Below are positions 2,256 to 36,200 of a stretch of 64,000 nt of DNA, one piece after another. Origin of the DNA: Sclerodactyla briareus (lineage: Eukaryota; Echinodermata; Holothuroidea; Dendrochirotida; Sclerodactylidae); NCBI GenBank assembly GCA_026419785.1, contig JAODTK010005918.1, positions 142,501-206,500 on the forward strand, read 5' to 3'. Made by a program: the position numbers and the translations under genes. Position 1 is the stretch's first letter. Each line of letters starts with the position of its first letter. Below the pieces are notes generated by a model that saw only the letters and a list, made by a program, of their open reading frames with translations, was not told where the DNA came from and did no database searches.

Positions 2256-3049
2256 CTTTGACAGTAATTGAACGAGGTCACCAAGTTCGATCTAATCAAA
2301 GTCTGAAAATTGATGAGTGTGATAGCTGTGCACGAATTGATGTAGAAAATCCCAATAGTACCGAGGGTTGTTCTTTAGATTGGAATTATTTCTATAGATT
2401 GGATGATTTCTATAGTGTTGGGTCGGGTTAAAAGTCACATTATAAAACGCTCCACAATATATTGAGAGTACCTTTCATTTGGCTTTTTGGTCGCACGACA
2501 AGGGATAACCCAGCATTTGGGGTTCTTGCTCACTAGAAGCACTGTTTGTACATAGCTGGTTCTACTACTACAGGACTCTCATGACAAAAGCCCACTATTT
2601 GGGGTAAGAAAGTGTACAGTAACCGATGACCTCATCAACATAAGGCGAGGGTTTATGCCTCCCCTTTGTGTTTTGTTTAACGACATAGGCCGTGACTGTC
2701 AAATTGCAGCCCTCTTGAAGGTTTGTCGGGAGTCACATCGTATATAACACTCTGAGAAAAAAAAATAGTGCAAATTAAATAGAAAGTACTGGCATCTTGC
2801 CTTTTTGAAAGACCGTTGAGGAAAACTGGTGATTCGAGTGATCGAACTCCGCGACCTTGTGCTTACGGTGAACGAATACCAGCCCGAGCCCTTGCCCTTC
2901 CTCTAGGACGCCGCCAATTATGACTCCGCCACATGTGACATAGCGTTGGCGACGCGTTTTCAGCATATATTGAATAATTGCTGGAATAATAGCCTCTAAG
3001 ACTTTAGCATTGTGGGCAAAAGATTACGAAATTTAGTCATCGTTACAAC

Positions 3050-3130
3050 AAGTACCATGAGTACAAGGGCTCCTGTAAGCAGCATCACGGTTTGTACGGT
3101 GTCCTGCGTAGATGACTGGCGGCTAGTCTC
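3050..3130 (-). pseudogene. Inverted copy of SLC5 exon 6
   Basis: On the minus strand an acceptor ending TTTTAG is followed by codons for GLAA. After single-base breaks come residues like IYA, a VQTV-type stretch and GALVLMVL, the family's sixth/seventh helix region. A donor-like GTTGTAAC follows. It mirrors 34213-34290. The frame is broken at about three points. It lies 15-18 kb from exon 1, on the opposite strand, with no downstream exons 7-13, so it cannot make a complete carrier. Confidence 0.75.
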
Positions 3131-6044
3131 CTAAAATTACGTAAGAAAAAAAAAAACACCCTATAAAAGCAACTTGGGTTACTGATCTATAAAACCAACC
3201 AATTTACTTTCGACCGATCGCCCATCACCTAACATTGATGGTGGCCATAGGTACTCCCAACAGTAGTTGCCGTGTCACGAGGAGGCATACAAAGATTGGT
3301 AGTACAGTGTCCCTGGTGGGATCGAAGGGAAAAGCCATAGGCGTACGGGACCATTCAATTTGGGAGCAGTTAATTTTTGGCTGAATTTTACCAAAAGTCA
3401 ACCAACGGAGACTACCAGCGCGCGGAATTTTTTGGCATGGTTTTTCCGGCATTTGATCGAAAAGTCAAGGGGGAATCTGCCCCACACTTCTGGAATATTC
3501 GAGTGAACGAATGATTCGAATCATTACTCGCATATTTACAATGTCTGTAGAAAACGGCCATTGTGCGAGCGAAACATTTGAAAATTTATGCACTTTTCGT
3601 CTATTCGATTCAAAATTCGAGAATTTTGTATGAAACATGGGTAATCCTTCGAGTTCAGCCCTATGGGATCCGATCTTCCTTGCCGGTCTGCACCTGATTT
3701 CCAACGCGATTTGTTCGCTAGAAAGAAATTGAATCAGTTTAGCCGATCATCAAATTATGATTATCACTGTGAACCACCGCATCCCGCATAATAAAATGAC
3801 CAGGAGCACGGTACACTTTCATACAGAGTTAAGTAATTGGGGTCAGAACAACTTACCTCATATACCAAAAGGTTTAGTGATGATTTACAAATTGCATTTT
3901 TATATGCATCACTTATTAGCAGTCCCTGATGCTCGCGAAAAGTTCTGCCACCAAATTCATAATTAAAAAACTTTTCATTTTTTACTGTCAATATTTCTTC
4001 CATTATTTCTACGAATTTGGGTATTTTTAGTTCGTGTTTTTCACTTTCAAATTATCCTGCAACCCGGCCCGAACCCGTTCCGGATATTATGAGATTTGCC
4101 CCAAGTTGGTTCTGTTACGTATCCGTGATATCTTTACCATCTTTACTATATCAGCTAGATTTACAATGTCACCCAACTAAGTAAATGGTTTGCCAATGCA
4201 ATAGCGGTGTATCTGCTAGGACTATTACCAATTGCGCATTCCTTTGTGGGTTCGTGATCCTTAGCTTTTTGGAAGTCCTCCGTACTTATGTGTTTTAACT
4301 CTTGACCACCTGGTACCCTAAACTGTTCTGCCAGGGCAATTGCCACCCTGACTAGGTACGCAAAGCCAATGTGATGCCAATCATGCCAGCAGTGCAAGCT
4401 TGTTGATTACAGCAGTGAACAATGTGTTCCTCAGGCAATCGTAGGCGAACTGCAGAATAATAAATTCTGAAAGGAGAAAAAAAGCTGATGAGCTGGCATA
4501 GGCGTACCCTTCTGATTTTGGGGGGCAGACAGTGTTTTGCCTAATCTTAAAGAGACGACAGAAAGGCTCATAGCGCGCGGAAAAGTTTTGCTGTTTTTCG
4601 GGCGTTCGATTGAAAATCACGCTTGTCAGCCTACATTTTGGGCATTTCCTTCACGTTTTGCTTTTTTTCTGTCCAATTTTTCCCCGCATAATTGTCAATT
4701 TTCGCTCGAATTTTTTTTATCTCAAAATAACTTTGCGCTCTTCAAGGGGCTACGCATTTGGGTATGTCTGAGCCAGAATTCAAAGCAGTTTGGATTTACA
4801 ATAATAAATTGTGAACAACTAGGTAGCCTAGTTACTATGTCCAGAGTGGGGCGTAACTCGAATTGTTTTATTGGGTGAAGGTATTTTTACCCTGCGAAAT
4901 TAGTAGGTGCCATGTGAATTCATGTTGCAAAAAGAAAGTAAATCCGTCAGAAAGAAAGTGAATCCGTCACTGAGTTCTAAATTTATGTTTCACTCTGTCG
5001 GCAGCTGTGACGTAAGACACAGGCGAGGGGCTAACATTTCTTAGAGCGCTGTGAGAGGGGTCTCAGGGTTTACCAGTCCCTTTGGAAAGTGTTGGCTTCA
5101 GGTGCAATTCATGCTCTAAAATGTGATTTTGTGCCAAAATGTGTTGACTACCAAGGGCAGTAAGTTTTCTTCCTTTGGTTATTAGCCTGAATCCGACCTA
5201 CCATGGGACCACCTCGGTTGGGGTCTAGGAGAAAAGGCCTGGAAGTCAGAGCGGAAAGCACTTTAGGAGAAACCCCAGGTTATAAATTTTCGTTATAGTG
5301 GGTTGTGTCCAAAAAAAAATGGGGGGGCGATCTGAGATTGGCTTGCCTAAATTGATTTATTGCATATTATGGCTATTTCGGATATGCTGAATCCAAAAAT
5401 GGAGGGTTCCATTTTTTGGAAGTGGTTATGGCGGCCATTTTGGAATTCAAAATGGCCGCCATTTTTCGGGAAAATTGTCATAACCTTATCAATATAGCAC
5501 TACGGACATGATGTTAGTGGCTAACATTATGTTGTTGATTACAGCGGATCCAATGGTAACACGAGCATCAACAAAACTCCAAGGCGGCCATCTTGGATTT
5601 CAAAATGGCCGCTTTTTTCGTCGGCTAATAACTGACGAAAAAAGCTGATCCATAAGCTTTCGTAGCTTCACATTTAATGCACACATTTGACCAAGTGCTC
5701 TATTTTCGTATCGTAAATATTCGATTGTGTTCCTTGTGGGGTTGGGAGCTATTTTGGGTATTAGAACGGGCATAGCGCCCTCAAGAGAAATCACTTGTGT
5801 ACACAATCTAGGCGATCTGGCCATAATGTTATAATTTCAACAACTATCACTGCAGCTTCTGATTCCACCCATTGGTAGTAGTTCCATTAGAAAACTGTAA
5901 ACGAATCTGGTAGTCGAGTGGGAAAACTTGAGGTTTGTCCCCCCCTCCCCCCCCCCAGGAGTTGCACGGGGACATAAGTTTGAACTCGAGACTCACATCC
6001 GGAATGGCAGAAGGAATTATATTTATAGTACCAACTGAACTTTT

Positions 6045-6317
6045 ATGTGCGATATCATTCTGAACCCTGATCACACAGGCGAGAGCCTAGAGCAACTGGC
6101 AATTCGTTGCACTAGTGTTGTTCATAACCCCCTCCTTCCCGCTTCAATCCTTGAGGATCGCGCAGCGAAACTTTGTGATGAATTTCATTTCAGATATATC
6201 AATATTCAGCATGAACTTCTACGAGAGGCAGATTACTGCGCTGGATATCGCAGCGTATCGGTTCTGCGGGCGCGCAAACCAAGAATAGGAATAGGATGCC
6301 AGTCAACAATTTTATAG
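6045..6317 (+). other. Unidentified 90-codon open frame inside the 5.2-kb insertion
   Basis: An open frame of 90 codons starts MCDIILNPDHTGESLEQLAI. Composition is protein-like, with a mix of charged and hydrophobic residues and no simple repeat. I do not recognise it. It sits at the edge of the GC-rich core of the TIR-bounded insertion, so if real it would be an exon or fragment of an element-encoded protein. It could equally be a chance frame. Confidence 0.2.
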
Positions 6318-6499
6318 GTTTAATAAACAGCTGCCTGGGCACAATACATTGACGTCTCCCTTCTACCAGTAGAGCGAAGCCGGTAGGATGGACACCCACT
6401 GGGTAATATCGCCTTCCCGCGTTGGTACGGGCGGCGGTTGGAGAACTGATCGGAATCATCCGGTTGGATCAGTTCCAACCCCAGGACTCTTGTAGCCGG

Positions 6500-8780
6500 A
6501 GTCCTGTTGGTCACATTGCTGGTGATTGTAGGAGGACCACCGGCCGATATTCCTGTTCGATAGGAGGATCATGATTCCCGACGAGATCCTGTGTTCGAGA
6601 ACAGGAAACGGGAGCGGTTATTGGCAGACTGATCTCCTTTGGGCGGCTGACGGACGCAGAGTCCAGCTTGCCAGTCCTCCACCTCCACCAGGGACTTCCG
6701 ACTGGAGGCAATCCTCAAACTTCCCCCTGAAGAGGTCTTCGCCTGAAGGGAAGCTCTTGATGGCCGACTTGATTGACTGGGACGCCCACGGGTCCGCCCC
6801 CGCCCCCCCCCCCCTCATGACGGTTCCTCGCGCTCCGGACAGTACGCCTAGAGTCACAACGAGCCAGCTGGTCAAACGTTAATCGCGCTACTGAACCCAC
6901 GGGGGAGATGACGGCACCGATTCCTCACTGAGAGAGACGATCATGGCCTGTTCTGGAATTGGGCGAAGCAAAAAGGGTGTGTTAAGTTCTCTTCGGCCAC
7001 GTGAAAGACACGAGCTGCAGACTTGTTTTCTGTATAACCTTGCCGAGGCAAGGAGTGAAAACCTATTCAAGCCCGCAAGGGTGCAGACCCGGCTATTGCA
7101 CCTTATTTGTCAGCTGCGAATCCTTCACCAGGTATCCATGCATATAGGCAATCCTCTCCTCGGCGGTACCTTAATGTGGGGGTGGAGTAATCCTACAAAG
7201 ACGGCCACTTGCAAATTGCCTACCCACTCGTTTTGGCGCTGCTCCAATCCCTTATGCTGGTGCGAAGTCCATTTTTCTCGCTGCGATGGCTTAATAGCTT
7301 TCGTGGCATTCAGCATCCCCTGGAATAGAAGAAACCCGAGCTCTCGGTAAAGCCGCGTTTAAAGTGTAAGCTTCGACTTGGATTCCAACTTCGGAGTTGC
7401 AGGGCCGGTCGTACCCGTGATCGGCGGAAATGCTACTGCCCCGTTCGAAGGCTTCAACCGAGATCGATGTACCCGGCGCGCTCGCCCTCATTCTCCGCCA
7501 ACATCCTGTCGGTGAGCGTGTCAGGACGGCCACTCGTTCGTGTCCCACGATCCAACAACTCCTGCTTCGGCGAAGGGTCGTCAGGCAGAATCACCCCCCC
7601 CCCACCCTTAGGAGTACTCGTCGGAAGACCCCGGACTCGGTCGCGGAGCTCTCCTTGTCCTTTTTGCCACATGTGCCCTGCACTGCACCCCCTGATCACT
7701 CTCATGTGAGCTCCCCCCACCTCCGATGGAACAACACGTAGACTGCGAGTCGGGAGAGCCGGGTCATCCTCCAGGTCGGGCCATGTGGGGGGGGTGGGTC
7801 CTGAGATGATTGGTGGGCGCCGGGCTCCGCAACGGATCTTGTTGCCACACTGAAGCCGCAGTCGACCCAAATCCTTGCTCGAAACCCATGCCCGACATAG
7901 CGCCTGCCCAGCGCGGGAACGGGAGGAGCCTGTGGTGGTTGAGTCAACTGCTAATCTCGAACGTCCTTGGCCGCTGAACATCGCCGCGGAAGCCGCTTCT
8001 TTGCTTGCGATTTGCTCCTGGAACCCCCCTTGGCAGAACGACTTCCCATGATCCCAGAGGAGCCGTAGAGACACGAGCCGGACAGATCCTCACGAGTTTC
8101 GGACAGACTCTCGGTTCCCGTTAAATTCTGAGTTTCCCCTGGTTCCGGATCGCCGTATTCTGGGAAGTTGTTCCGGTATCCGGACCTTTTGGAAGCCGGT
8201 AGGGTCCGGCCAACTGAGGTTGCCGCACCCATGCAGGGCCACCCTACCGCGGCCGGTGCGACTTTCCCCCGGCCGGAATGCAGCACGGACCCACGGCTCT
8301 AGCAAGACGAGTCTGGAGTCCCTCCCCGATGTCCGACCGCGAGGGTGACTTCGGACGTAGGATTGCGGCGGCGGCTCTTTGTCCCAGATTTCCGGGCGTC
8401 CTTTCGGGAGGTAGTATCTCCACTAGGAGATGGCACCTGTAGTTCGACGAGATGGATGACTCGCGATTTTCCCAAGCGCCAAAAAAAAATCGTAGCCTGC
8501 ACAGCTGTTACCGGCCGTTGTGCCCATCTGCGGCAGGCGCACGCAGGCACCCGTCCGTGCCCGATCCGAAAGGTTGGCGACCAACCCCCTCCCCCAAGAG
8601 TTGAAGCGGAACGCAATAGCGGGGCAAGGGAGCCTTCCCAGCCCCTTGCCTCAGCTGGCGGTCCAAATTTAGCTGGATCTACTGGGCAGTCTCTCGCCAG
8701 CGAGGAAATTCCCACGGTTCGCAAATAGTTCACGGAGACGTGGGGGCACATGCCCAGTACCTCGTGCATATTCGTGAAAG
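6500..8780. other. GC-rich core of the insertion with antisense open frames, no identified product
   Basis: Base composition is clearly richer in G+C than the flanks, with runs of C (for example 6800-6813 and 7586-7600) and long open frames on both strands, as expected where stop codons are rare. The longest are a 206-codon minus-strand frame (7454-8074) and a 156-codon minus-strand frame (8299-8769). Both are Arg/Ser/Gly/Pro-rich, contain no catalytic motif I know, and look like low-complexity translation. A gag-like disordered protein is possible but unsupported. Confidence 0.3.
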
Positions 8781-10818
8781 TCCCAGATAGAGTGGGACGA
8801 TTTTTGTGAACATTTGCTCAACGTACTGTCTGAAAACACAAACTGTTTGAGAACACTCAGCAACACCATCAACTCACTAAAGGAACCTCCAGTAAATCTA
8901 ACTAGTTTCTCTTCGCGTTTACCGTCACGGCCGACGAACGGAGGGCCAGAGCTCAGAAAAAACGGAAGAAGGGGCCCGCCCGTCACATCCCTAAGGGAAA
9001 AAACGAGCCCAAAGGGATAACACGCTCAAAGGGCGAGTACTATAATCGAACCGAGAGCACCAGGCCTAGAGCCAAGGGCCTAAGCAGGTACTGTCTTACC
9101 TCACATGCGCAAAGATCCCCGTACCCACAGGGTGGTAGCCAAAAAGCTGTCTAGGTCTGTACCACTAGGCTAGACTCCCTAGCCTATGTGAAAATCAAAA
9201 AGCACGGCCTGCGGGCCCTCCCTGAAAAGAAGGTTTCGAATGACATCTTCTCCGAGAAAAACGTTATCGTCTTAGGTTATCTGTCAAAGAGCACGCCAAA
9301 ATCTTCCAGAAGTAGGAGGAAATGTTAAAAATGGAGGGACTCTCAGATCAAATCGACGCCGATTTGGTGCAAATGCTTACATCTTGGCGGCGGAAATATA
9401 ACTGAAGGGCTGGTCGAGTTGCCAGTGGCAACTTTTGTTTTCGGCTTGTTAGGAGTAGGATAATGACACCTGCATATGCTGTCAGGTAATGACGACTGGT
9501 GCAGTGAATTGAGGTTCTTGGAACGAATCACTCCAAAATCAATGCACATCGTTCCGATACAGACGTGTAATTCCAGTTGGCACTTCATAATCATGGATGT
9601 AAAATACGAACATATCTAGCCTTTACTCATTTCACTCATGTAGTAGTTATATATGCGGTCATATATAAAAGGTTGGGATTGTTCTACTCTTGACAATGAC
9701 GGCCATTTTTCTTCCAACTAGTAATGGCCGCTATCCAGTTTACATGACCATTATGTAATTGGCAAATTGGCAGTACAAAACGCATGCCCCTTCCCTGTTA
9801 GATCACCAAAACAGTAAGTTCAGCTTACGTAAGCTTATGCCAAAATTCCAAAATAAAAATAAAATCGTAAAATTCAACTGACCGCCATTGCCCGGAAGCA
9901 ATTGATACCATTGACGATTTGACGGTTTACCTTGTAGTAATAATATGTACGATACGTCGCGCATCCGCTGTATAGTTTTCAATTAAGTATTTCCGTAATT
10001 GCTAAAATTTACTCTGACGTCTGACTACTCTCTGATCCGCAGAGATCATCCTGATTAGTTCTACAGATCGAGTATTACTGAGATCGAACACCATGTCCAA
10101 GGTAAGCATTAACTGAAGAACCGTCCCCATAGATTGTGAGATCACGATGATTCTCTAACTTTCCGACGAAAACGGGACGGCGGCCATTTTTAAATTCAAG
10201 ATGCCCGCCATGTAGTTCTGGGTGATGGTGAATATTACGTTAGATCTCGACCGACCAACAACATTATGTTAGCACAATACCAGTCTGAGGAAGTATGAAA
10301 CGGGAGAGTTATGATAACTTTCCAATAAGAGATGGCGGCCATTTTGAAATTCCAAATGGCCGCCCAAACCATGTCAGAAAAAAATGGAACCCTCGATTTT
10401 TTGATTCAGAGTGTAATTCGAAATGCCTGAAAATGCAATGAAATCAATTTCGGCAAGCCTATCTCGAAAAATGACACCAACAAAACCCCCACTATTAATG
10501 CCTCTTACCCGTTTCTTTCGACGAAATTTTGACTGTAATATCATAAATTTGTTCGAACTTCGTTGCAATCCATGAAGGGAGAACACACACATTCGCAAGG
10601 GTGTTAGTTTCGCATGGTTTTTCCTGGTATAGTCTATGAATTTAAAAAATGCTTCGCATCTTCACTTCACTAGAATTGAATAATACATTTCTTGCCTGGG
10701 TTTTGTTAAACATAGCATATTCATCATCCTATATAGCGGCGCTCGCAATGTATGCAATATCCCGACGCGCTCCACAATGCTGTAATCGTTTCGGAATCAT
10801 GGTGCCAACGACGGTTTT

Positions 10819-10874
10819 TGTTGAAATTGAAGTGCAAGATATATATTGTTGAAATTGAAGTGCAAGATATATAT
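10819..10874 (+). repeat. 28-bp tandem duplication
   Basis: The unit GTTGAAATTGAAGTGCAAGA plus ATATATATT occurs twice back to back, followed by a third diverged copy (GTTCAAATTGGAGTGC). The mirror position in the right arm (about 31840-31875) has one unit fewer, so the copy number changed after the arms formed. Confidence 0.7.
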
Positions 10875-11784
10875 TGTTCAAATTGGAGTGCATCGTATAT
10901 CGATGCCATCAGCTGGCTAGAAATGCCATGTCTGAGGAGCATTAGTAAAATATAGTTCCAGAATTACAAAATTGCACTCAGTACTGACAGCGAAACAACT
11001 ATCAGGATACCGAAACGGACGGAATTTTTGCATATTTCTTGGAAATCGATAAAATCACAACGTCCAAACCTGACAAGATTGACAAACTTTGCTCAATCAT
11101 CGGCTTCCGACAAGAGAAATCGAATCTTCTGACATTGTGGGCGATTTATTCCATTTGCAGGTTTTGGCACTTCGGCAGGCCTGAATTGTGCCTATTCTTT
11201 GCCCAAGCGGTGTTCCTCGAACTGCAAACTTGCTTTAACTTCTATAATGTGTTGGAGCAGTCTGACTCGTATGCCAACGCCGCTCCGTGTTATAATCAAT
11301 GGACATTTTATTGTGAATCTACCTTTTTTTTTTTTAAAAAAAAAATAGTCTCACTTATGCTTCTGAGTGAGAAACCTTGCAAAAAGGCTTCATATCGCCA
11401 GAATATGCCTTCAAATGCGTCGCTCACGACCCTATAGAAACAACAGTTGTAGGTCGTCTGCGTGCGCATGCGCTCCGAAATTTGGACGATCAGGTTCGGA
11501 ATAAAAGCCACTGTGGTCTTTGTGAGGCTGCTGTCTCAATATTTTTCAGCCCACACAGACACTTAACGAATACGTGTGTAAACGGACATGTACTTCGTCT
11601 TCATCGAGGATCGAGAAGTGGGGGGCGGGGAGGGGACATTTGATATGATGTCCCCCCCGCTCTTCGAAAAGTGGGGGTGGGGGACGTGTCCCTCTGCCCC
11701 CAGGATCGACGCCATGGAGACTACCCAAGACCGCACTGCTCGAGAACTGTTACATTGATTTAAGTGGGACAACCCCCGACCTAC

Positions 11785-11891
11785 CGACCACTGTATATAC
11801 AGCTGTGATGGACAGGAGTAAAATGATGGCGAGATACAGGTTCCACCCCAAACGCCTGCTGGACAAAGAGTGCTCCCGCGAACATGTTAAC
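11785..11891 (-). pseudogene. Inverted copy of SLC5 exon 5
   Basis: On the minus strand, after an acceptor CACAG, the sequence encodes VNMFAGALFVQQA. Then a single inserted T shifts the frame, after which [21 protein letters not shown] and a donor GTAGGT follow. This is the SGLT segment spanning the fifth helix. It mirrors 30876-30981. This copy keeps the family-typical AGALFVQQ stretch, which the right-arm copy has garbled, so the two arms carry independent errors. Confidence 0.85.
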
Positions 11892-12564
11892 CTGTGAAAA
11901 AAAAAAAAAACATTGCGGAATTGAAAAGACAATGACTGTGTAATCAAAGATATTTTGGAAACACTTAAGGATTAACACAACTGTTTGTGAGTTAGTAGAG
12001 CCCGGGTCCCACTTGCGCCGAGTACCATGCGATTCAATTTCAACAATTGAATTCTGACGAGGTTCAGGAAGCTCCGTTAGGCTCAGGAACCCTGACTGTA
12101 TTGATCGTGGGTGGCACCGGCGATAACTCGCCTTTCTTCTTGACAGTGCTCAGATTGATCGAGATCGAGACGAGGGTGTAACTAATCCCAACCTACTCCC
12201 GGACCGCCATTTTACGTCCCTTCCGAAGGACGATCAGTGAACACCAGGAACTGACCATTTCTCAGAACCTCCAGTAGCGGAAGTTCATGTTCACGGTGCT
12301 GTCGTGCTCGCAGCCGACGAGACTTATCTCAAATTGCTTAAAAACAGACCCCAATAACACTAGAAGGTCCACTGCATCACAGCAAAACCATGAAGTGAAG
12401 GCCAAGATCTTGCCCATTGCAACTGCAAGACAGCCACCTAAGGAGGAATGTCTGGTGGCTGATGTAATTCGAACCCGAAATGGTTCGTTTTCAACTACGT
12501 CACTGATACCACAAATTGATATTCCTATTGAGAGATATCATGGTTCCGACTCTTATTTCCAATA

Positions 12565-12662
12565 ACATACATAACATACATACATACATACTACATACAT
12601 ACATACATACATACTACATACATACATACATACATACATCATACATACATACATACATACTC
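12565..12662. repeat. (TACA)n/(TATG)n microsatellite, left arm
   Basis: About 100 bp of nearly pure CATA/TACA repeats with a few interruptions. The right arm has two such tracts (28846-28940 and 30107-30200) flanking an extra 1.2 kb. Confidence 0.95.
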
Positions 12663-12705
12663 TAACAAGAAACCCAGAAACATCTAAGTGGTTTACTGCA
12701 CTCAC

Positions 12706-12795
12706 CGAAATCTTTGTCAGAGCCAAAACTGCGATATATACTCGAATACGCTGACCACCATAACGCTTACATAGATACTCCGGCATCGTGTACAC
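12706..12795 (-). pseudogene. Inverted copy of SLC5 exon 4, open frame
   Basis: The minus strand reads 30 uninterrupted codons: [20 protein letters not shown], then [10 protein letters not shown]. An acceptor CTAAAAG lies before it and a good donor GTGAGT after it. This is the highly conserved SGLT segment after helix 3. Compared with the family, about five residues are missing between LAL and TKIS. The right-arm copy (28686-28788) is longer there but is frame-shifted earlier. The copy stands without exon 1 on its strand. Confidence 0.88.
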
Positions 12796-12944
12796 CTTTT
12801 AGGGGAAGCACATTTTAGAAAATAGAAATTTATACAGAATCACTGAACATTATGCCGTTTCGTTCGGATATGTGGCCGAAATACTAACAAGATAGAGCTA
12901 AAATCTCAGACAATATTTGCTAGATTAGAAAAAAATAGATATCC

Positions 12945-13955
12945 AGCCTTATACGAAGTCTGTTAATTCGAGGTCATATAAAACCTTTGAATATTCTTAT
13001 ATTATCATATTATTATTTATTATAATATCGAGTGCCTATATAGCGCTTTCCAGCGTCGCCTGACATCCTCGGAGCCCTCCACAGATATGAGACCTACCCT
13101 GTTCATTGAAACCGATACGCTCTCCGACTATCCCGGAGGGTAGTTGCTGCTTTTAATATCACAGTTGTAACGAGTCGCCTGAAAGTCGAGTCACAACTCG
13201 AGTCGAGTCATCTGACAGTCGAGTCACCAGTCGAGTCGAGTCATTGACATATTTGTTCGAGTCAAGTCGAGTCGAGTCACTGCCTCAGCCGAGTTGAGTC
13301 AAGTGGAAGTAAATTTGTTTGTTTTCAGTCACTTCGAGTCAGTATGGTACAGTGCGTAATGATTTGCGATCACTAGCGCTAGCATAGTACAGTGCTGGTG
13401 GGATACATGGAAACGAAATGTGACTGCATACGTTGACTGTTTATTACCTCAGCCGCTCATCAGTGCGCTGTGTGCATGTATGTAAGTACGTACGTGCGTA
13501 GCAAGTGAGCGGCAAACATTTTTTCAATTGCGGTGACGATTTTTGCGTCAAGACTGAACTTATACTCGAGTCAAACAATAGAAATTCGAGTCAAGTCCAG
13601 TCATACTGGTTAGTGACTCAATTCCAAGTCGAGTCACAATTGTGAGTGACTCCATCCAAGTCGAGTCAGTTAGTGTAATGACTCGAGTCCGTGTCATTAA
13701 ACAATGTAACTCGAGTCGACTCGAGTCCAAGTCAATAACTCCATACAGCCATATAAGTCTGGCATTTATAGCCGCAGCTATACTGTACTGTACAGGTCCC
13801 CAATGTTCATAAGAGCGGGGTGGAGCATTGGAGACAAAGTACCTTGCCCAATGGCACATCAGAAGAGCTGACCAATAACACCGGCCTCTTTCATTCACGT
13901 ATCTAAGCATTATATTAGCAACTTTACATGATGAATAGAATCGAAATCTGATACA
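12945..13955. mobile_element. Nested insertion private to the left arm: LINE/SINE 3' tail interrupted by a GAGTC-rich block
   Basis: The mirror stretch in the right arm (about 28545-28600) lacks this kilobase. Outer parts (12990-13150 and 13740-13910) read on the minus strand as a repeat 3' region: TGCCATTGGGCAAGGTACTT, CTCCACCCCGCTC, then GGAAAGCGCTATATAGGC and an (ATT)-rich end. This resembles L2/CR1-type tails. Between them, 13160-13740 is packed with GAGTCGAGTCA motifs on one side and inverted TGACTCGAGTC on the other. That looks like a foldback or MITE-like element inserted into the tail. Confidence 0.6.
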
Positions 13956-14373
13956 AGTTGATATTCATCAAAACGTTCCCATACAAGTGTTGTTTTTCAA
14001 TAAATATACTTACAGAAATATTTACAAGCAGATCAGGCAAAGTAGCTCCATGATTCCGACAATCTATGTATTACCCGGGGGATTTAGCTGAGTGGAATAT
14101 ATAATTTTTGTTATGATTCCGACGATTGTTTTCCTAGCCGACAATAAGATGATAACTTCTCGTATGATTTCCTGGCTAGTAGCTGACAAACTGAAAAACT
14201 CCGATTTCACACTAGAGGTAAATATAATAACTACGAAAAGTCAATTCGTGTTTTCATGATCATTGTACTTTGAACTATTCCATTTTTTCCACAACGTACT
14301 TTACAAACAAGAATTCTAGGTATGAGCAAATAATATAGCAAGGTGGAATGAAGTATTCTGACGAAGTTCCTAC

Positions 14374-14475
14374 CTTCGAAGAGAAGTAACGGGAAGAAAG
14401 TACCACCCAAGGAGAATGTTGGAGACCATTGCCTGAATACAATGAAACATTGCATCATTCCATTGTTTCTTCAGC
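14374..14475 (-). pseudogene. Inverted copy of SLC5 exon 3 (5' boundary uncertain)
   Basis: The minus strand encodes, with a shift, WNDAMFHCIQAMVSN then ILLGWYFLPV and a serine-rich end before the donor GTAGGAAC. This matches the family's second/third helix ending in LGW-F-PVYISS. It mirrors 28090-28193. I could not place the acceptor: the glycine/alanine-rich start usual for this exon is not clear in either arm. Confidence 0.6.
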
Positions 14476-14599
14476 TAAGAGAATTTCAAGTTATTCGTCA
14501 AAGACATAGTCTGTGTCATCGCCGTTTGATTGTAGACCAAATAGTGGACTTAAGTGAGCCGAAAACACGACGACCTGCGAATCCGCTGCTGGCCCTTAC

Positions 14600-14720
14600 C
14601 CGGCGAGACCTATGAAATGTTCACTGCCGATGTTACTGGCGAACAGGGAGGCACCGATCGCCCGATCACCCCTGTCAGGAAGTAACCCTTGAGCGTCGAT
14701 CGAGAAGAGCGGAAGAAACC
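14600..14720 (-). pseudogene. Inverted copy of SLC5 exon 2
   Basis: After the acceptor TTTCTGCAG the minus strand reads GFFRSSRSTLKGYFLTG. A gap of about 12 bp follows relative to the right arm, then AIGASLFASNIGSEHFIGLA and donor GTAAGG. This is the conserved SGLT helix-1b/2 segment. It is the cleaner copy of exon 2: the right-arm copy (27823-27953) has several indels in the same part but keeps the GGKMAWW codons missing here. Confidence 0.85.
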
Positions 14721-15879: not shown

Positions 15880-16052
15880 TAATGCATGGTCAGCCTACAT
15901 GATTCAGCCAATCAAGGGAAGTATTGACTGCAAGTATGAATGAACAAGCTTTAACAACGTAATGGTAACCGTAACAATCAAAAAAAAAAAAAAGTTTGAT
16001 AGTTATGTGACAACATTCCTTCTTGTCATATATCATCCCTGGTACTCTGAAG

Positions 16053-16168
16053 GCATATCCACACAGGATACGTTCTGTTCCGTCACGTCACGACAGGTTT
16101 TATTTCCGCACGGCTGACGGTGTGACGTAGACACCCGCTCGTCCGAACAGAATCCGTCTCTCCATATC
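16053..16168. mobile_element. Short MITE-like element with about 28-bp terminal inverted repeats
   Basis: The 5' end ATATCCACACAGGATACGTT is mirrored at the 3' end by the complement of ATATGGAGAGACGGATTCTG. CGTCACGTCACG lies inside. A related copy lies in the loop (21420-21520) and the arm partner at about 26345-26480. It has no coding capacity. The ends resemble hAT-type MITEs, but I cannot confirm the family. Confidence 0.5.
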
Positions 16169-24200: not shown

Positions 24201-27200
24201 TCAGGCTGAGCCCATGGTGAGACAAGTAAGACTACATCATTCTCTATGCACAGTATCTCAAGAAGCAGATCACGGAATTTCAAGAGATTAGTTCCTGTCT
24301 ATCTATGCTAAAATAATAATAATAAAATATCTTCCGTGACTCCCATGTTTCCAACACAACTGTGTAGTTATGTTATATCACACTTCACTTAGAGGTAGTG
24401 GGCGGTTGGACTTGAGGTCGATGTTTAAGAGGTTAACGGTTGAAATGACATATGCTCTATGCTACAAAGCAAGGCAGATACTTCAATAGAATTTAGGTCC
24501 TCATTCTCGATCTCGGTCTTGGACCTTGTGGTATCGGTCCGATTTCGGGACTCTCTTGCCGGTCGCGGTCTCGGTTCGATCACTGATCCCTGGTCTCGCT
24601 CTCGGGACATGATGGTCTCGACTTCATCAATGTCTATCATTGAGGGTTATATTTTTATGAGTGTCATGTATATTGGGTTGGTGTTACCTCATCTCTAATC
24701 ATACTATCTGAGCTTCTTCCAGTCATTGTTCTTGGTCCTGGCATGCAGTTAATCTTAGGGGCATGGCCCTTACTATGTCAGCTAGGGTACTAGAGAGGGT
24801 TGTGTGGGTCAGGTGCTTGATTCGTGACCGCCTTCTTGCGTGTTGGGAGCGATGGGTTTGTCTCAGGTGGCGACCTAGTTCCACCGAACCTGTCTGTTTG
24901 AAACTCGCAGGATGGGGTCGACCCGGCTCTGCAGGCAGCCAGCTTACTCGTTTGGTTGGTTCAGTTTAGGCGGGTTGACATGCATGGAGATCGGTTCGAA
25001 TCCAGGCCATGACTCTTTGTCCGGAAGAGACCGAGGGAGCGTGGATTGTGAGGGTGGATGCTTTCCAGGCATGTGCCCCCTGAGTGAGTGACGCGAGTAA
25101 TTCACTGGTATTTAGGGCCTTCCCATTCGATGCATAATAGGCGCTATCTGTTCCTAGGGCAATTGTTAACAAGCACGCTTGTTCCCGCTTTGAAAGAGGA
25201 GCGAAGTCTATGTTTAATTGGCGAGAAGGGGACTATGTCGGGTTCTGTGCGATGACCGAGGGGATCTCCCACCACTTACCACACACCCAACGTGTCAAGA
25301 GAATACATTACCAGTCTTTTCGTGGACTTTCAAACCACCGAATTTTATAATGAACTCAATTTCTTAATGTTACTGTTTTTTAAAAAAAGTGACACCAAAA
25401 GGACGTTGCATTAGTTGCGGAATGAATTACTATCGCGGTCGAGGAATAAGTTGGAGCGCGTGCAGAATGGGATTACTCGCGGAATATTACAAGTATAAAA
25501 AGAACCCTCTACTCATCCGGCAATCCAATATGCTTCCCTCGTAAAGCTTATTCGCCTTTTTCGAGATACCAATCATTCGGAGAATTCGTCTTGGCAAATT
25601 CTATCTAAATTCAGAACATCGCAGACCTCTAATTGCCACAGACGAAAATTCTTAGGCCTTCAAGTGAGATAATAATAGCCTACCTGAGGCATTACAGCCA
25701 ACGCTGTCGAGGGGCCAATGCCTCACGCCAGTGGTGTCCTCTTGATCTCGCTGGCCCGATTATTTCAAAGGAGTGCCGGGAACGTGTGCGGAATTAGCAT
25801 TGAAGTACATGCTTGGAAACGCTCATGCCAGGGGAGCCTGACTAATCTCTGGTATTCACTGAGATCCTTTCTTTTTCGGTTTGGTTCGTAGAACCATGTG
25901 GTCCCTGATGCTTGTTAACTGTGGACAACGAGGGATTGCGAGGTGCATTCGTTGTCTTCTTTTGTTGGCTAGGATTTCCGTTGGAAACCCGATGTCCCCT
26001 ACGGTTGCGTCCTTGTGGGACAAACGAGGGTGCGATTGCGATGTCGTCATTTCCCTGCTGGAGTCCGCCATTTCAACAGTTGTGATGTTAGTCCGGTGTC
26101 TGGTGCGGAAATCAGAAAATCTCTTACGTGGTATTAATCAATTATCCAGGCTCATTTCAAACACAGTCTATTGCATACCTACCCCCAGTTGACTTGTATT
26201 TCTTCTAACGAAAAATATGAAAAGGTAATAAAATTCAGACCTACTTTGGCCTCTGGTGCAATCCATATGAAATGAAAAAAGTTATATTTACATTCCCCAA
26301 ATGATTTTTGATGGTTCGAGATGTTATTTCTTCCAGTAGCATTTGGCTGATATGGAGAGACGGATTCTGTTCGGACGAGGCGGTTGTTAGGTCCACATCA
26401 GTCAGCGCGTGCAGGAAAATAAAACCTTTGATCGTGACGTGGCCGAAACAGAGCGTACCCTGTGTGGATATGCCTTTAGAGTACCAGGGATAATATATGA
26501 CCAAGAAGGAATGTTTACAAAAACTATCGAACTTTTTTATTGATTATATATTAACAGAACCGCAGTGGTTAAAGCTGGTTCATTCATACTTGCAGTCAAT
26601 ACTTCCCTCCTGATTGGCTGAATACAGGTAGGCGCACCGTGCAGTTTTATTAATGAGGGGTAATCAACGGGCGGCGTGTGTAATCCACTAGATGATACAC
26701 GACCGGAGGTTAATTCAATCGATGCACGAGGGCGCAGCCCGAGTGCAACAGCGTTAGAATATGAACCCCGAGGAGTGCTCATCATGTGGACAAAACACAA
26801 TCGACCGTTAACCCGTTCATGTATACAACACGCGAAATTTTATTTGAAAAAAAAAAAATGCACCAAAAAACGACCCTCGTTTTACCACTTTATGACAAAT
26901 AGGAAACCCCTGATGACATTGCACAAGAGTCTTGGTACATGCAGCGAACAAATTACCTAAATTGATTCAACTAAACTAATTTCGCGTTTGTAGAATGAAC
27001 GGGGGTCAATCAACAGTCGGATTTAACGGGGGGTGAGTTTCTAACGCTGGATGCACTCAGGCTGCGTCCTCGTGCATCGCTGAATTTGACCCACCGGTTG
27101 TGCATTACCAGTGGTACAACCCGCTCGACCGTAGATCAACCCCTAATTATCGAAAACCAACTTCTTTACATGAACCATTAGTGGAGAGACTTATTCCAAA

Positions 27201-30200
27201 GGAAACTAGAGCCTACTGGGAATGTGGGGTGTTTGTTTCTCATTTGTCGCATGAAGCCACACTGGTCACATGTTCCTTTCGTGTTGCTATAAAACATTAT
27301 AAAAAGATGAAATCAAAACTAGAAACAACTGATGAAGTGAAAATATTCGAGGAAAAAATTATAACATACCCATACGTATGCTATATCTGTCAATGACCGC
27401 ATGATGGATTTTAACACGTTTTACCAGACTCGAAAGGTTAAAACTTGAATAGAAAGACTACCGCATATTGCGTATTCAATGCAACCGCGTCGGGTCGGGC
27501 CGGGGCACAGCACCGTATGTTTCTGACCAGCTTACTTGCGACTAGCTTTATCAAGTTTGGACAAGTCGGGCATATGAACATTTCAATTGTGGTCTTGTGG
27601 TTCAAAAAAAAAACGAGTCTGCGTGGTCGGTCGTGGGTAAACAAAGTGGAGAAACGCCTTTACTCGACCGGGCGACAAGTCTTGTCGGGTCTTGTCGCGA
27701 TTAAGTTTGGTGAGTGTTGTGGTATCGCCTCAACTTCCAGGGTGCTTTTTTGTAACTCTGTTGTAGGAAATTCAGCCACAGCACGGACGTTTGTATTACC
27801 TGCTTCTCGTCCCGTTCTGCAGGCTTCCTTCCGCCTCTCTCGATCGCGCTCAAAGGTGACTTCCTGGCAGGGGGTAAGATGGCATGGTGGGCGATTCGGT
27901 GCCCTCCCTGTTCGCCAGTACATCGGCAGTGAACATTCATAGGGTCTAGCCGGGTACGTGGGCAGCAGCGGGATCGCAGTCGCGTGTTTCGAGATCAACG
28001 TAAGTTCACTATTTGATTTAAAATCAAACGGCGATGACACAGACGATGTCTTTGAGAATAACTTGATATTCTTCCTTTAGTCTTTTTAGCTGAAGAAAAC
28101 AATGGAATGATGCAAAGTTTCATTGCATTTCAGGAATGGTTTCCAAACATTCTCCTGGGTGGATTTTTCTTCCCGTATACATTCTCCTTCGAGGTAGGAA
28201 CTTGAACCTCTTCTGCTTTTTGTCCCAGTACTTCATTCCACCTTGGCTAATTATTGCTCATACCTAGAATTCTTGTTTGTAACGTACGTTGTGAAAAAAA
28301 AAAAAATGAAAAGTTCAAAATTACAATGATCATGAAAAATGAAATCGACTTTTCGTAGTTGTTAAGAATACAGCTCGGTGAAAATCAGAGTTATTCAGTA
28401 CAGTCGTCGGAATTCATAAAAAATTAATATTCCACTCAGCTAAAACCTCGGGCAAACATAGATTGTCGGAATCATGGAGCTAATTTACCTGATCTGTTGA
28501 AATATTTCTCGGAATATCAACTCCGTATAGTCCGGGGATTATAAATATTTTATTTTCAGAAATCTTGTCTAGATATTTCGCTTTAGTCTTATTAGTATTT
28601 CGACACATATCCCGCGAAGAAACTGCAGAAATGTTCAGTGATTTTGTAAAATTTCGATTTTCTAAAATGTGTTTCTCCCTAAAAGGTGTACACGATGCCG
28701 GAGTATCTATGTAAGCGTTATGGTGGTCCAGCGTATTCGAGTATATATCGCAGTTTTGCTCTGATAATTAAGTACTGCAAAGCTTCGAGTGATTGGTGCA
28801 GTAACACCCCTAGATGTTTATGGGTTCTTGTAGAGGATGATGTATAGTATGTATGTATGTATGGCTGTATGTAGTATGTATGTATGTATGTATGTATGTA
28901 ATGTATGTATGTCTGTAGTATGTCTGTAGGTATGTATGGTTAAGAGGAAGGCTATATTACTGATGAAGAAGATTCCCCCCAATTTGTATATATGAACGAG
29001 GAGAATGGTGTGTGATTAAGAGAGGTCGGGTTCAATGGCGCGTTCTGTCTGGGGTAGAATTAAACGAGATTGCATACATGAAGACCTCTCTTGAATTTAA
29101 CGATGACACCTATGCTGTAGGGTGAGCAGGAACAATGGCCGTTCAGTTGGTATTTCGATCCCATAAGGCGCTTTCTATGGTTTCAGAAAGAAAAAATATG
29201 CCTGATGGGAGCGACAGCGACTCCAGGGTCTGAAATCGCAAGGTAGAAAAGTAGAAACGGTTCAAACCATTCCATATCTGCTTATTTGAGCAATTCTACC
29301 TAACGATCAGCGTCCAGTTCACATTTAAGGCCAGTTTGCAATTATTGGAGTGTAATTCCCGCATGCACCTTTATAGCACGATTCTATCAGAAATCGGTTA
29401 CTTCTGTAAAAACCGTCTAGACACTGTGTCCCACGCTATGAATGGCTGCCTGCCTTTTCGCAACTGCTATGTCTCAGCATGACAGAATTGTGTCATAATT
29501 GAACAGGAATTACATAAGAAGCATCCGGACAGTCTAATCCATAACAACAAAATTACTACTAGTGGCATGTTTGGTGCGCGCCCTTATGTTAATTTGAGTG
29601 CTCACCCGAAAACCGGACGGAGTTGCTACTGCTGTGACCAGCCGTACTTTGAAATGTTTTCATTGAAATTTCTTGCCCATTTAGCAGTCATTGTAAAAAC
29701 GTACGAGTCTAAGTTTCGCGATGGAATCAACCATTGAATAATCTGATTAAGTGGACACGAGATACTTGTAAAACTATTGTCTTCTTCATTGGCTAGGCCT
29801 GGTAGGAGTGTCCACAAGCGCGTTGTCAAGGCTTGCGTTTGCTGGGATTCAACATTACAAAAGTAATGCTTTGGCTAAATTTGCTAGCATTAGTGCTTCT
29901 ATCGGGTCCAGTAAAGTGTGGAAAAAAAGGGCGAGGCTTTAGCCACACTACCACATGGGCTAATATGCGAGCTATGGATTGCATACTTTTGTAACTTCAC
30001 TTTCGAAAAAGCATTATATTGACTGGTATATTGTATCCGCATGTCTTGGCTACCATGTCAGTATTGTTCAATACTGTGGTTAAAATGCAATAAACAGGGA
30101 AAACTATGTATGTATTATGTATGTATGTAGGTATGTATGTATGTATGTATGGTATGTATGTATGTATGTATGATGTTGTATGTATGTATGTATGTATGGT

Positions 30201-33200
30201 ATGATAGTGACTAGAGTCGGAACCATATATTTATCAATTGAAATATCAATTCGTGGTATCAGTAACGCTTTGAAAAACGAACATTTCGGGTTCGACTTAC
30301 CATCAGCCACCAGGCATTCCTCCTTAGCGGGGTCTGTACTACAGTGCACATGGGGGCAAGACTGGCTTAACTTCATGGTTTTGCTGTGCTGCAGTGGACA
30401 TCTAGTGTTATGGGGTTTGTTTTTAACGAATTGGAAGATACGTATCGTCAGTCGGCTGCGAGCACCGGACAGCACGTGAACAGAACTTCCGATACTGGGT
30501 TTCTGAGAATGGTGAGTTCCTGGGTTCACTGAATCGCCTTGCGGAGGGGACGTAAAATGGCGGTCCGGGGAGAGGTTGGGATTGGTTACACCCCAGGCTC
30601 GATCTCGATCTTCTGAGCACTAGTCAAGAAGAGAAGAAGCCGATTATCGCCGGTGCTCACCCACGATCCAATACAGTCGGGTTTCCTTGATGAGCTCACG
30701 TAGGCTTCCTAACCTGTATATTCATTTGTGGGAGATGGAATCTTTAGGTACTTGGCCAAACGGAAACCGGGTTCTACTAATCTACAACACCGTTCTTGCT
30801 AATCCTTACGGTTTTCCCAAATATCTTCGATTACACAGTCATTGTCTTATCACTTTCGCAATGCTCTTTTCACAGGTTAACATGTTCGCGGAGCACTCTT
30901 TGTACCAGCAGGCGCTGGGGTGGAACCTGTATCTCGCCATCATTTTACTCCTGTCCATAACAGATGTATATACAGTGGTCGGTAGGTCGGGAGTTGTCCA
31001 CTCAATCAAGTAACAGTTCTCGGCCAGTGCGGTCGTGGGTACTCCATGGGCGTGATCTGGGGGGGCCAGGGGGACACGTCCCCCCACTTGTCGAAGTGGT
31101 GGGGGCATCATATCAAATGCCCCCCCCCCCCTTTCGATCCTCGATTAAGACGAAAGTACATGTCCGTTTACACACGTATCGTTAAGTGTCTGTGTGGCAT
31201 GAAATTTTTTGAGAAAGCAGCCTCACAAAGACCACAGTGGCTTTATTCCGAACCCGATTGTCAAAATTTTCCGCGCGCTGCGCGACCTGTAACTGTTGTT
31301 TCTATAGGGTCGTGAGCGATGCACTTTGAAGGCAATATTCTGGGATCTGAACCTTATGCAAGTTTTTCTCACTCAGAAACATAAGTGAGATTCTATTCAC
31401 AATAAATGTCATTGAATATAACACGAACGGCGTTTGGGCATACGAGTAAGTTGAAAGCAGTTTGCAGATCGAGAACAAACTCGCTTGGGCAAAGAATAGG
31501 CACAATTCATGCAGAACAACCCTGCCAAAGTTGATAAATCCCCACAATGTCAGCAGATTACCGATTTCACTTGTCGGAAGCCCGATGATTATCAAAATTT
31601 GTCATCCTTGTCAAGTTTGGCACGTGTGATTTTATCGATTTCCCAAGAAATATCAAAAATTCCGTCCGGTTCGGATCCTGATAGTTGTTTCGCTGTCAGT
31701 AACTGTAGACCACGTGCACGATAGCTATGACTTCGTGCAAAAAATTATTTTGAGTGCAATTTGTAATTCTGAGCTATAGTTTATAATTGCCTTCGCGAGA
31801 CATGCATTCTAGCCAGCGATGGCATCGATATACGATGCACTCCATTTGAAAACTATATATCTTGCACTTCATTCACAACAAAAACAAGTCCGTGGCCATG
31901 GTCCGAAAACGAGACAGCAAACATTGTGGAGCGCGTCGAGATATTTCTACATTGCGATGCGCTATAATAAATGAATATGTTATGTTAACAAAACCCCAGC
32001 AAGAAATGTACAATTCTCGCGAAGTGAGAAAACATTTTTTCAAATCGGACTAAACCAGGAAACCGTGCAAAACTAGCACCTTTCGACTCTCTGTGTGTTC
32101 TACCCTTCATGGATTGCAACAAAATTTCGAACAACTCAGTCAAAATTTCCGTCCGAAAGAAACGGGTAGAGCCAAACGAAAATTAGAACCTGGGTTCTTC
32201 TCTAGAATGGGGCCTAACCGGTCCTGACCCCAGGCTTTTCCCTAGACCCCACTGAGGTGGTTCCCATGGAGGTCGCCAATAACCAAAAGAAGAATTTACT
32301 GCCCTTGGTGGTCGCACATTTTGGTACAAAAAAATCACATTTTAGATCATTAAATTGCAGCACCTGTGAAGCAACACTTTTTTCAAGGGACGGGTAAACC
32401 TGAGACCATCTCATAGCTCTCTAATAAATGTTAGCCCCTCGCCTAGTCGGAAATGCTTCCGTCACAGCTGCCGACAGAGTGAACATAAATCTAGAACTCA
32501 GGACGATTCACTTTTTTTTTGACGGTAATTTACTTTTTTTTGCAAACAATGAAATCACATGGGAACTCCCTTACTAATTCGCAGGCAAAAGTAACCTTCA
32601 CCCAATAAACCAATTTGAGTTACGCCCCACAAATAGTAACTAGGCTACCTAGTTTGTTTCAAAATTTAACTAATTGTAAATCCAAACTGCTTTTCTGAAC
32701 GATCTGGCTCAGACCCAAATTGCGTGCCCTTTGAGGAGCGATGAAAAATTCGAGCAAAAATTGACAAAATTCCGGGAAACTTTGGACAGAAAAAGGCAAA
32801 AGTGAAGAACTTCCAAATTTATGCTGACTGGCGTGCATTTCCAATCAAACGCCTGAAAAGCATGCAAAAAGATATAGTCAAACATTTTTCTGTTTTCTGC
32901 CAAAATCAGAAGGGTCCCGTACGCCTATGCAAGCTCATCATCATTTTTTCTCCTTTCGATTTAATTTTTCTCCATGTCGTCTACCGATTGCATGATGAAC
33001 ATTGTTCACTGAATGGGCCTCAAACGAGCTTGCACGCATACATTGGCTTCGCGTAATAGTCCCAGGGCGCAATTCTCTGGCAGAAAGTTTTTGAGGGTCC
33101 TAGGTGGGTCAAGAGTGAAACACATAAGACTGCGCCCTTGTAAGAGTCCTATCAGATACACCGCATATTGCTAATTGGCAATAATTTATATTTCATTTTT

Positions 33201-36200
33201 TAACCCCAAGTTGGGTGACATTGTAAATCTTTTCCCATATACTGATATAGTAAGATGGTGAAGTATATCCCCGGTGCGTACAACCAACTTGGGGCAAACA
33301 GTCATAATATCCGAGACTGGGTCGGACCGGGTTTGCGATCATTTGAGAGTGAAACACGAACGAAAAATACCCAATTCGTAGAATATGGAAGAAATTTTGG
33401 GCAAAGTAAAATGAAAAGTTTTCAATTATGAATTTGGTTGCGAATTTTCGCGCACATCGGACTGATATAAGGTTATGCATATACACTGCAATGAAATTCC
33501 CCTACCCTTTTGAGTCTGGGTCTGGGTATTCGACGCGGGTGTACGTGGTTCACAAGTGCATAATCATAATTTGCCCGTCTAAACTAATTTAATTTTTTGT
33601 CTAACAACAATAATCGCGTTGGAAAAAAGTCCACTAATTCCAAGTGCTGACCCCAGATGAAATTCTAGACCCCACTAGGGCTGAGTCGAAGAATTCCCAT
33701 GTTTCACACCGAGTTCCTCTGAATTTTGACCGAATGCCAATTCCTTTCTGGGCAACGTGTTTTCGCGCGCAATGGCCTTTCTCTAACAAACCCAGGCAAT
33801 TTAACTATGCGATGGTAATGCTTCGAATCTTTTGTTCACTCGAATTAATTTTCAGAAGCCTTGCAGATCCCCCCCCCCCCTTTTCTGAGATGAATTTCTG
33901 CTGACTTTTTAGATCATACAATGCTCGGAAAACTACACAATTTTTTCGCGCGGTAGTTTCCGTTGGCAAAAATTTACTCCTCCCAATTGACTGGTCCCGT
34001 GCGCCATGGCTTTTTTTTCCTTCGATCCCACAAGGGACTTTACTACTCATCTTGTATGCTCCTCGAACGGCAACTCAAGGTTGATATACCTATGGCCACC
34101 ACCGAATGTTAGTGGATTGGCGATCGTTCAAGTAATTGGTTTTGTTTTTAAGATCAGTCACACCCAAGTTGCTTGTATAGTTTTTTTTTTTTCTTTCTTC
34201 ACGTAATTTTAGGAGGACTAGCCGCATCATCTACACATACGCCGTACAACCGTGATAATGCTGCAAGGGCCCTTGGTACTCATGGTCTTTGTAAGTGTAA
34301 TATATTTTTGCCACAATGCTTAGTCTTAAAGTCTATTATTCAAGCAATTATTCAATATATGCCGAAAACGCGTCGCCAACTATCTGTCACATTTGCGGAG
34401 TCGTAAATTGGTGGCGTCCCCGAGGAAGGCTGGCTCGGGCTGGTATTCGTTCAACCGTTAAGCACAAGCGGATTCGAATCCCACTCGTATCCAATTTTCC
34501 GCAAAGTCTTCCCCTCGTTCAAAACGGCAAGGTGCCAGTACTTGGGATTTGAACCACTGTACGGGACATGAATTCTCTGCATGGTGGGAGTTGAGTGTTC
34601 AGGCATTATTCAATCATAGAGGAGGCGGGTCAGGCTGGCCTGTTTACACCATTGACTGGCTTCTGTCTTGGAGTCGGGTGGTCAAGCAGGCGGAGCGGTG
34701 TGCAAGGTCGCTCATACCCAGTTTTTCTCAACGGTCTCTCAAAAAGGCAAAGATGCCAGTATTCTGTTTAAATTTTATTAGGTTTTTTTCAGAGTGTATA
34801 TACGATGTTCCCTCCATACAACCTCCAAGAGGCTGTGAATTGACAGTCATCGGCCTATGTCGCTAAAAAAACACGAAGGGGAAGCAAACCCCTCTCCTCT
34901 ATGGTTGCTTAGGCATCGGTTACTGTACACTTCCTTACCCCAAATAGTGGATTTTGTCATGAGTAGGCCTTAGAGTATACCGCTATGTAAAACAGTGCTC
35001 TAGTGAGCAAGAACCCAAGGGCTGAGTACCCCTTGTCGTGCGACCAAGCAAATGAAAGGTTACTCTCACTATACTTTATAATTGGACTGTTTAACCCGAC
35101 CACCCAAAACTATAGAAATCATCCAATCCAAGGACAACCCTCTGTGCTAAGTACTAGCTTTTCTACAATCATTCGTTGCACAGTTATCACACTCATCAAT
35201 TTTCAGACTTTGATCTCGATTGACCTTTGATGACCTTCGACTCGACCTCAAAACGATAGAGGTCTTTATTCTGATTCAATAGGCAACCCTTCGTGACAAG
35301 TATGAGCTCTCTACATCATTTCGTTGCACAGTTATTGTGCTCAAAGCCTCGCATAACTCTGACCTCTGTTGACCTTGGTGACCTTGGATCCGACCCAAGA
35401 CGATTGAGTTATGGGTCTTATTCTGATGTGACCATCCCGTAAATTGGAACTTGGATTATTGAGGTTCTCTCTGGATATCGTCACATCCAACACTTTGCGT
35501 ACCTGGCATATATAACCTTCTGCCCCCGGCAATTATTCACAAGAGCCCATGGCTCAGTGATGCCATTGCCGCGCCACTGGGGACTGATAAACCGTTTGTT
35601 GTTCATGCCATTATACGGTTGTCTGCTATTTGGGTCCCAGAAAGTGCATGATGTTCTTGTGAGATATTCCTAGGGATCATTAAAATGTTCTGAAATATGT
35701 AGAAAAATCTCTCTTTTTTGGGGGGGGGGGAGGGGGAGAGGGGGGGGGGTATAGATAGATGAATAATGGACGATGGACGGAGTGGATAGGTAGAATGTCA
35801 TGCGGATTGTAATAGCTCAGCCGACAATGCTAGCTGGGGCTAGAAATATTGAGCTATTCACTCTTCAACCTCAAGACCTGGACCTATATCCTAATCCTCG
35901 GAAATTGGGTTCGCATTCCTAAATGATAGTCCACCAAGCCAGTAGAGTTTAGAGAGATACACCTATGGAGGCTTAGTGATAACGTGTTCTTCGACCTGCC
36001 ACCAACACGATAAGGATCATTTACTCTCCGAATTACAACCCTTCGAATATAAAGGACGTGAAATGGTCGATTACAGATGAAATAAATAACAATTTGTTTT
36101 TTTATTTTTAATTGTAGAACGTGTGTTGTAGCCGAGACCGGCACATCCGAAACCGAGACCGAGATCGGACCAGAGGGTGTGTCGAGACCGAGATCGGACC

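Follow-up and report, generated by a model that had tools for sequence, protein, structure and literature searches.

The window analysed here is a stretch of 64,000 nucleotides from the holothurian Sclerodactyla briareus (contig C3161, i.e. C3161:142501-206500; positions below are those of the window unless given as contig positions), and parts of it were searched against the assembly of 319 Mb in 3,171 contigs. On its + strand lies an SLC5 gene that was placed by means of a human SGLT1 protein query and the Pfam SSF domain (PF00474); the latter scores above its cut-off in the frames 39651-39872 and 41569-41913, and thereby assigns the gene to the SLC5 family. From the human SGLT1 query, we take the gene to be probably of the SGLT type. 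The gene starts within a palindrome (Table 1). Exon 1 lies in a single-copy loop between two mirror-image arms, exons 2-6 (our own numbering of the five right-arm exons) lie on the + strand of the right arm and recur on the - strand of the left arm, and five later coding stretches follow to the right.

This arrangement of the exons had been described in the original prediction, which also held that the right arm runs into the complete SLC5 gene. Later exons do follow up to 47565, but as the last C-terminal exons and the far 3' end of the gene were not located, the description as complete is not borne out. The right arm is moreover not a clean copy, its exons carrying frameshifts like those of the left arm. 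The five later exons (924 bases) contain one frameshift and two in-frame stops. A search with PF00474, which yielded seven matches and also missed the exons of the arms, returned no left-side exons 7 onward, and no second copy of the stretch at 38.4-42 kb was found in the assembly among the best 40 of the 1,427 candidates scored. Most likely, the right copy is the gene and the left copy a non-functional, and presumably inert, fragment. A second SGLT-type gene is found on the + strand of the same contig, within C3161:12501-22500, and has two frameshifts in 610 coding bases.

Table 1. Features of the window around the palindrome
Feature	Position in window	Strand	Remarks
1.1-kb tandem repeat, two units	1-2269		Abuts left arm; more copies, mostly inverted, past right window edge
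Left arm	2275-20523	-	Inverted copy of right arm, with exons 2-6 on - strand; from self-BLAST and exon matches
Transposon-like insert	5296-10494		5,199 bases, private to left arm; inverted ends flanked by TTA
Private left-arm segment	12919-14013		Contains pieces of dispersed repeats
Loop between arms	20524-21818	+	Single copy; one full match in assembly
Exon 1	21104-21231	+	Inside loop; one frameshift before splice donor
Right arm	21819-35236	+	Carries exons 2-6; from self-BLAST and exon matches
Private right-arm segment	28936-30104		Flanked by two (TATG)n tracts
Exon 2	27830-27999; left copy 14554-14713	+; left copy -	Borders approximate
Exon 3	28100-28195; left copy 14372-14465	+; left copy -	Borders approximate
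Exon 4	28686-28775; left copy 12716-12795	+; left copy -	Borders approximate
Exon 5	30876-30990; left copy 11776-11891	+; left copy -	Borders approximate
Exon 6	34212-34285; left copy 3055-3131	+; left copy -	Borders approximate
Later exons	38470-38655, 39651-39902, 40618-40725, 41611-41778, 47351-47565	+	Five stretches

Mirror-image arms that derive from two different molecules

Comparison of the window with itself (self-BLAST) yields nine inverted blocks in mirror order, ranging from an innermost block that pairs 20523-19886 with 21819-22461 to an outermost one (within the window) that pairs 2829-2275 with 34718-35236. When the reverse complement of the left arm is aligned with the right arm, 10,936 bases are paired (small overlaps between pieces counted in) at an ungapped identity of 88.6% and with 706 gap openings. 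The strongest single inverted block scores 3,019 bits, as compared to 37.4 bits for the top match obtained with 20 copies of the left arm that were shuffled in 10-base blocks. A search of the assembly with the 4.3-kb arm block showed no third copy among the best 40 candidates scored, and the window contains no N letters, i.e. there is no assembly gap between the arms.

The loop (1,295 bases) has a single full match in the assembly, with no second copy among the best 40 of the 63 candidates scored; at least 44 other matches are confined to a dispersed repeat close to its right end, and one match of 39 bases connects the loop with the left arm. This short dispersed repeat (21412-21679) has at least 44 further matches in the assembly and is partly repeated at 21681-21812.

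The three large private indels reported before are all present, two in the left arm and one in the right arm. The largest of these, the transposon-like insert, has a GC content of 0.50 and inverted ends that start with TAGTGGG, and its empty site is found in the right arm near 32170. It is a member of a high-copy family, with at least 205 matches in the assembly and identities of 64-87% among the matches listed (the self match aside); three open frames of the insert have no Pfam match. Since a transposon with duplicated TTA is present in the left arm only, the arms represent two different molecules and not one folded read. The earlier argument that private insertions speak against a missed-adapter artefact therefore stands, as the element, its TTA duplication and the empty site opposite preclude one molecule having been read twice.

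In its simple form, a fold-back read is thus excluded by the private insertions, and a fold-back artefact of any kind, in which one molecule is read through both strands by way of a missed adapter or a whole-genome-amplification chimera, is very improbable. Palindromes of this sort do arise in amplified DNA and get into assemblies, according to one report (PMC6218980), and palindromic long-read chimeras likewise have head-to-head arms on one contig. Nevertheless, the arms at the present locus differ in transposon content, two further segments of more than 1 kb are private to one arm, the 1.3-kb loop includes a real exon, and the mirror extends far outside the arms with private segments of tens of kb.

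A larger mirror on the contig

The bounds originally predicted for the repeat (2270-35230) are those of the arms, but the mirror resumes beyond them, reaching at least contig positions 122,503 and 281,281. The contig matches its own inverse over 122.5-281.3 kb or more, such that the palindrome of the window constitutes only the centre. This self-comparison covers C3161 122.5-282.5 kb and leaves out 22.6-122.5 and 282.5-299.8 kb; the inverted genome matches on C3161 itself were found with a piece of the left flank as the query. Overall, the outer mirror pairs 122,503-137,175 with 267,634-281,281 in inverted orientation (four loci): 122,503-130,163 is mirrored by 281,281-273,422 as one block of 8.1 kb, and 131.2-137.2 kb by 273.1-267.6 kb piecewise, with one pair locally out of order. 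The tandem array at contig positions 142,501-144,770 has its mirror counterpart in larger arrays at 210.2-213.7 and 219.6-230.6 kb, in which a few units run in direct orientation, and the order of arm, array and outer block is the same on both sides. A few weaker matches of the 1.1-kb repeat are found on the contigs C366 and C1010. The right outer block contains an open frame of the thioesterase type (PF00975, E 9e-10); a frame from the left copy of the block has no Pfam match.

Inverted matches cover 4,644 of the 4,646 bases at C3161 122.5-127.1 kb, 8,276 of 10,029 at 127.1-137.2 kb, none of the 5,325 at 137.2-142.5 kb, 2,268 of the 2,270 bases of the left array and 11,650 of the 18,249 bases of the left arm, leaving 13.7 kb of the 40.5 kb of the left part read without an inverted match; the direct matches of this part, the array aside, are two pieces of about 110 bases each. 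On the right, the contig regions 177.7-210.2 kb (about 32.5 kb, exons 7 onward) and 230.6-267.6 kb (about 37 kb) have no counterpart in the left part read, the exceptions within the unmatched sequence being a weak repeat of 0.7 kb at 192.5 kb and a direct duplicate at 242-244 kb. Part of the outer block (C3161:265868-269734) recurs over about 4 kb in direct orientation at C3161:240417-244181 (25 kb apart, 81% identical), and the locus therefore has duplicated segments in both orientations. Near the ends of the contig, the stretch at 16.0-21.9 kb has itself as its sole full-length match among the best 40 of 5,239 candidates, the other matches listed being fragments of dispersed repeats that are scattered over many contigs (two lie inverted at C3161:245.2-245.9 kb), and of the last 4 kb the first 2.7 kb matches only itself among the best 40 of 3,067 candidates, the remainder being dispersed repeat.

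Consensus error and true divergence

Many of the small differences noticed earlier between the arms appear to reflect errors in the consensus rather than evolutionary divergence. The five shared exons show 35 substitutions and 32 gap openings in 510 aligned bases, and the non-exon remainder shows 1,217 substitutions and 675 gap openings in 10,426. Exons and introns have the same density of gap openings (0.063 vs 0.065 per base, p = 0.93), which is unexpected for a working gene, whereas substitutions are rarer in exons (0.069 vs 0.117, Fisher p = 0.0006). Frameshifts occur in exons 2, 5 and 6 of both arms and in exon 4 of the right arm too, and often the exon of one arm is intact where that of the other is broken. 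On account of this equal indel density, which concerns both arms, we attribute many of the small inter-arm differences to consensus errors. Outside the arms there are three frameshifts in 1,534 coding bases (the later exons and the second SGLT-type gene taken together), as compared to 16 gap openings in 510 bases (p = 8e-8), where 16 is half of the 32 observed and the halving is assumed. The frameshift in exon 1, as one event in 128 bases, does not decide whether the loop sequence is clean or noisy.

The spectrum of the differences is in line with this view. In the arms, the transition/transversion ratio is 0.56, close to the 0.5 of random error, and the gap/substitution ratio is 0.56; the transition/transversion ratio is likewise 0.56 within the 1.1-kb tandem pair and 0.55 between this pair and its right-hand copies. 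For a first transposon family it is 0.90 (21 pairs of seven copies, one pair consisting of overlapping loci without differences), and the left-arm transposon copy compared with those seven gives 0.59-1.10, with gap/substitution ratios of 0.26-0.47; a second family (36124-38368) gives 0.67-1.00 and 0.40-0.60, respectively. As these controls overlap with the arms, the error spectrum alone does not single the arms out; the comparison of exons and introns does. The second family is represented in the window by a dispersed element of 2.2 kb with dozens of copies in the assembly, the longest matches of which are 70-83% identical.

Among 281 isolated 1-base indels, 124, 91 and 47 fall in runs of 1, 2 and 3 bases, and thereby roughly follow the shares of bases in such runs (about 0.53, 0.27 and 0.12), apart from a slight excess in runs of 2-3. 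Microsatellite tracts in the arms are interrupted by indels, and so is one outside the arms at 55.1 kb. Gap rates are 0.065 in the arms, 0.076 in the 1.1-kb array and 0.057-0.065 in the outermost block. The mirror blocks at 131-137 kb of the contig, with substitution rates of 0.078-0.109, transition/transversion ratios of 0.79-1.16 and gap rates of 0.027-0.036, are closer to real divergence.

The best fit is a true divergence of the order seen in these blocks, overlain by an error layer that is most pronounced in the arms, the 1.1-kb array and the outermost block. Uncorrected long-read error, we infer, accounts for much of what differs at the base level, over a true divergence of very roughly 8-10% substitutions, and this layer renders any age estimate rough. 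Two simpler accounts were discarded: sequencing error between identical copies does not explain the private insertions and the lower rate of exon substitutions, and pure evolution does not explain why, in both arms, coding exons match introns in indel density and isolated 1-base indels roughly track base runs. With respect to the source of the errors, a palindrome-specific nanopore effect, as described in PMC7229812, would account for the noise of the arms but not for the 1.1-kb repeats, which look just as error-like, whereas a failure of short-read polishing in repeats, as outlined in PMC8812927, would fit both. Over one stretch of 402 bases, three actin copies on other contigs have 0, 1 and 2 frame changes (0 being the query itself); as copies elsewhere are broken too, low-level error is not confined to C3161.

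Inverted duplication or joined haplotypes

Judged on sequence comparison, the palindrome is probably, if by a modest preponderance, an old inverted segmental duplication that was poorly sequenced and the left copy of which has degenerated. The duplication would comprise about 159 kb or more of C3161 and would have copied head to head the 5' half of the SGLT-type SLC5 gene, the 1.1-kb tandem array and the outer block. The left copy, in the part read, would be without exon 1 and exons 7 onward and would have gained the transposon, and both copies would presumably reside on one chromosome. In agreement with the definition of a segmental duplication, two copies of more than 1 kb occur in opposite orientation on one contig. 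The usual identity threshold for this class is at least 90%, and the arms, as assembled, are at 88.6% ungapped, a value that the error layer lowers to some extent.

Support for an inverted duplication comes from the nine mirror-ordered blocks, the mirror that resumes outside the window, the transposon that is private to one arm and the exon substitutions that are fewer than those in introns. It also comes from the absence of a full-length partner for C3161 16.0-21.9 kb and for the contig end, of a third copy of the arm block, and of a second copy of the loop and of the 38.4-42 kb stretch (each among the best 40 candidates). Against it stand the unmatched 13.7 of 40.5 kb on the left and, on the right, the unmatched 32.5 kb or so and most of the 37 kb or so; left-side exons 7 onward could be located in C3161 22.6-122.5 kb. 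Like an inverted segmental duplication with a partial gene copy, the locus has two large opposite copies, one truncated exon set and a one-sided transposon, but it departs from the typical case in that private segments occur on both sides, the error layer masks the true identity and the placement on one chromosome is presumed.

The main rival is a false head-to-head join of two haplotypes from a heterozygous animal, in which the left half would be the reverse complement of the other allele; we regard this as possible, though less likely. The mirror runs outward in order for at least 40 kb on the left and at least 117 kb on the right, and large segments are present on one side but absent from the other, as in a heterotype false duplication, where a contig contains one locus in two divergent versions; the loop is single among the best 40 of 63 candidates. 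According to a study on this subject (PMC9516828), divergent haplotypes were the main source of false duplications in earlier assemblies, with 7-24% of the total on the same scaffold in the assemblies studied, and such heterotype duplications are recognized by half read depth and allele-specific k-mers. The present copies, however, are inverted, and no gap of N letters separates them in the window. The stretches compared close to either end of the contig look single-copy, and one of the supposed alleles would be without exons 7 onward in the part read. With a single misjoin of this kind, the mirror would moreover be expected to run until the shorter side ends, and second copies to occur elsewhere, provided that the haplotypes had been kept apart. 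The first 2.7 kb of the contig's last 4 kb is partnerless among the best 40 of 3,067 candidates, which could be explained by a private insertion, and three stretches (the loop, 38.4-42 kb and contig 16.0-21.9 kb) have one full match each among the best 40 candidates, such that retained alleles do not look general in this assembly. These last two observations weigh little against a misjoin, because much of the right half is private.

Which of the two readings applies has consequences for the use of the locus. A physical mirror would represent a large inverted duplication of a transporter locus, of a kind that can drive rearrangement; otherwise, a contig-scale haplotype misjoin would give rise to false partial gene copies. 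Above all, the locus calls for caution: the differences between the arms resemble evolution but are in part assembly error, and dating the palindrome or deriving antisense regulation from it would mislead.

Transcription of the arms and neighbouring features

In the original prediction, a promoter in the loop that fires both ways would yield an antisense exon set on the left, and transcripts of the two arms could pair and feed small-RNA pathways. Both parts fail on the orientation of the exons: as the left set is on the - strand and the right set on the + strand, divergent transcripts are both sense for exons 2-6, and since they have the same letters and are not complementary, they cannot pair. 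The small-RNA mechanism thus does not work as proposed, and, going by the order and strands of the exons, a hairpin RNA would arise only from read-through across both arms.

Hairpin RNAs are known to arise from inverted gene fragments in other organisms. That the present arms are a working regulatory device, i.e. that they produce hairpin or antisense RNA and thereby silence the transporter gene via small RNAs, is nonetheless highly unlikely, given that both RNAs transcribed outward from the loop would be sense and that the hairpin would be imperfect, with about 11% mismatches and frequent indels as assembled. More far-fetched still is the combination of a natural inverted duplication of at least 100 kb with read-through of the loop, which would produce an exon 2-6 hairpin and, through small RNAs, silence the neighbouring transporter gene.

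Further to the right in the window, at 42.5-44.7 kb on the - strand, fragments of a LINE-type retrotransposon are present, with a reverse transcriptase match (PF00078, E 8e-9) and weak endonuclease matches below the cut-offs.
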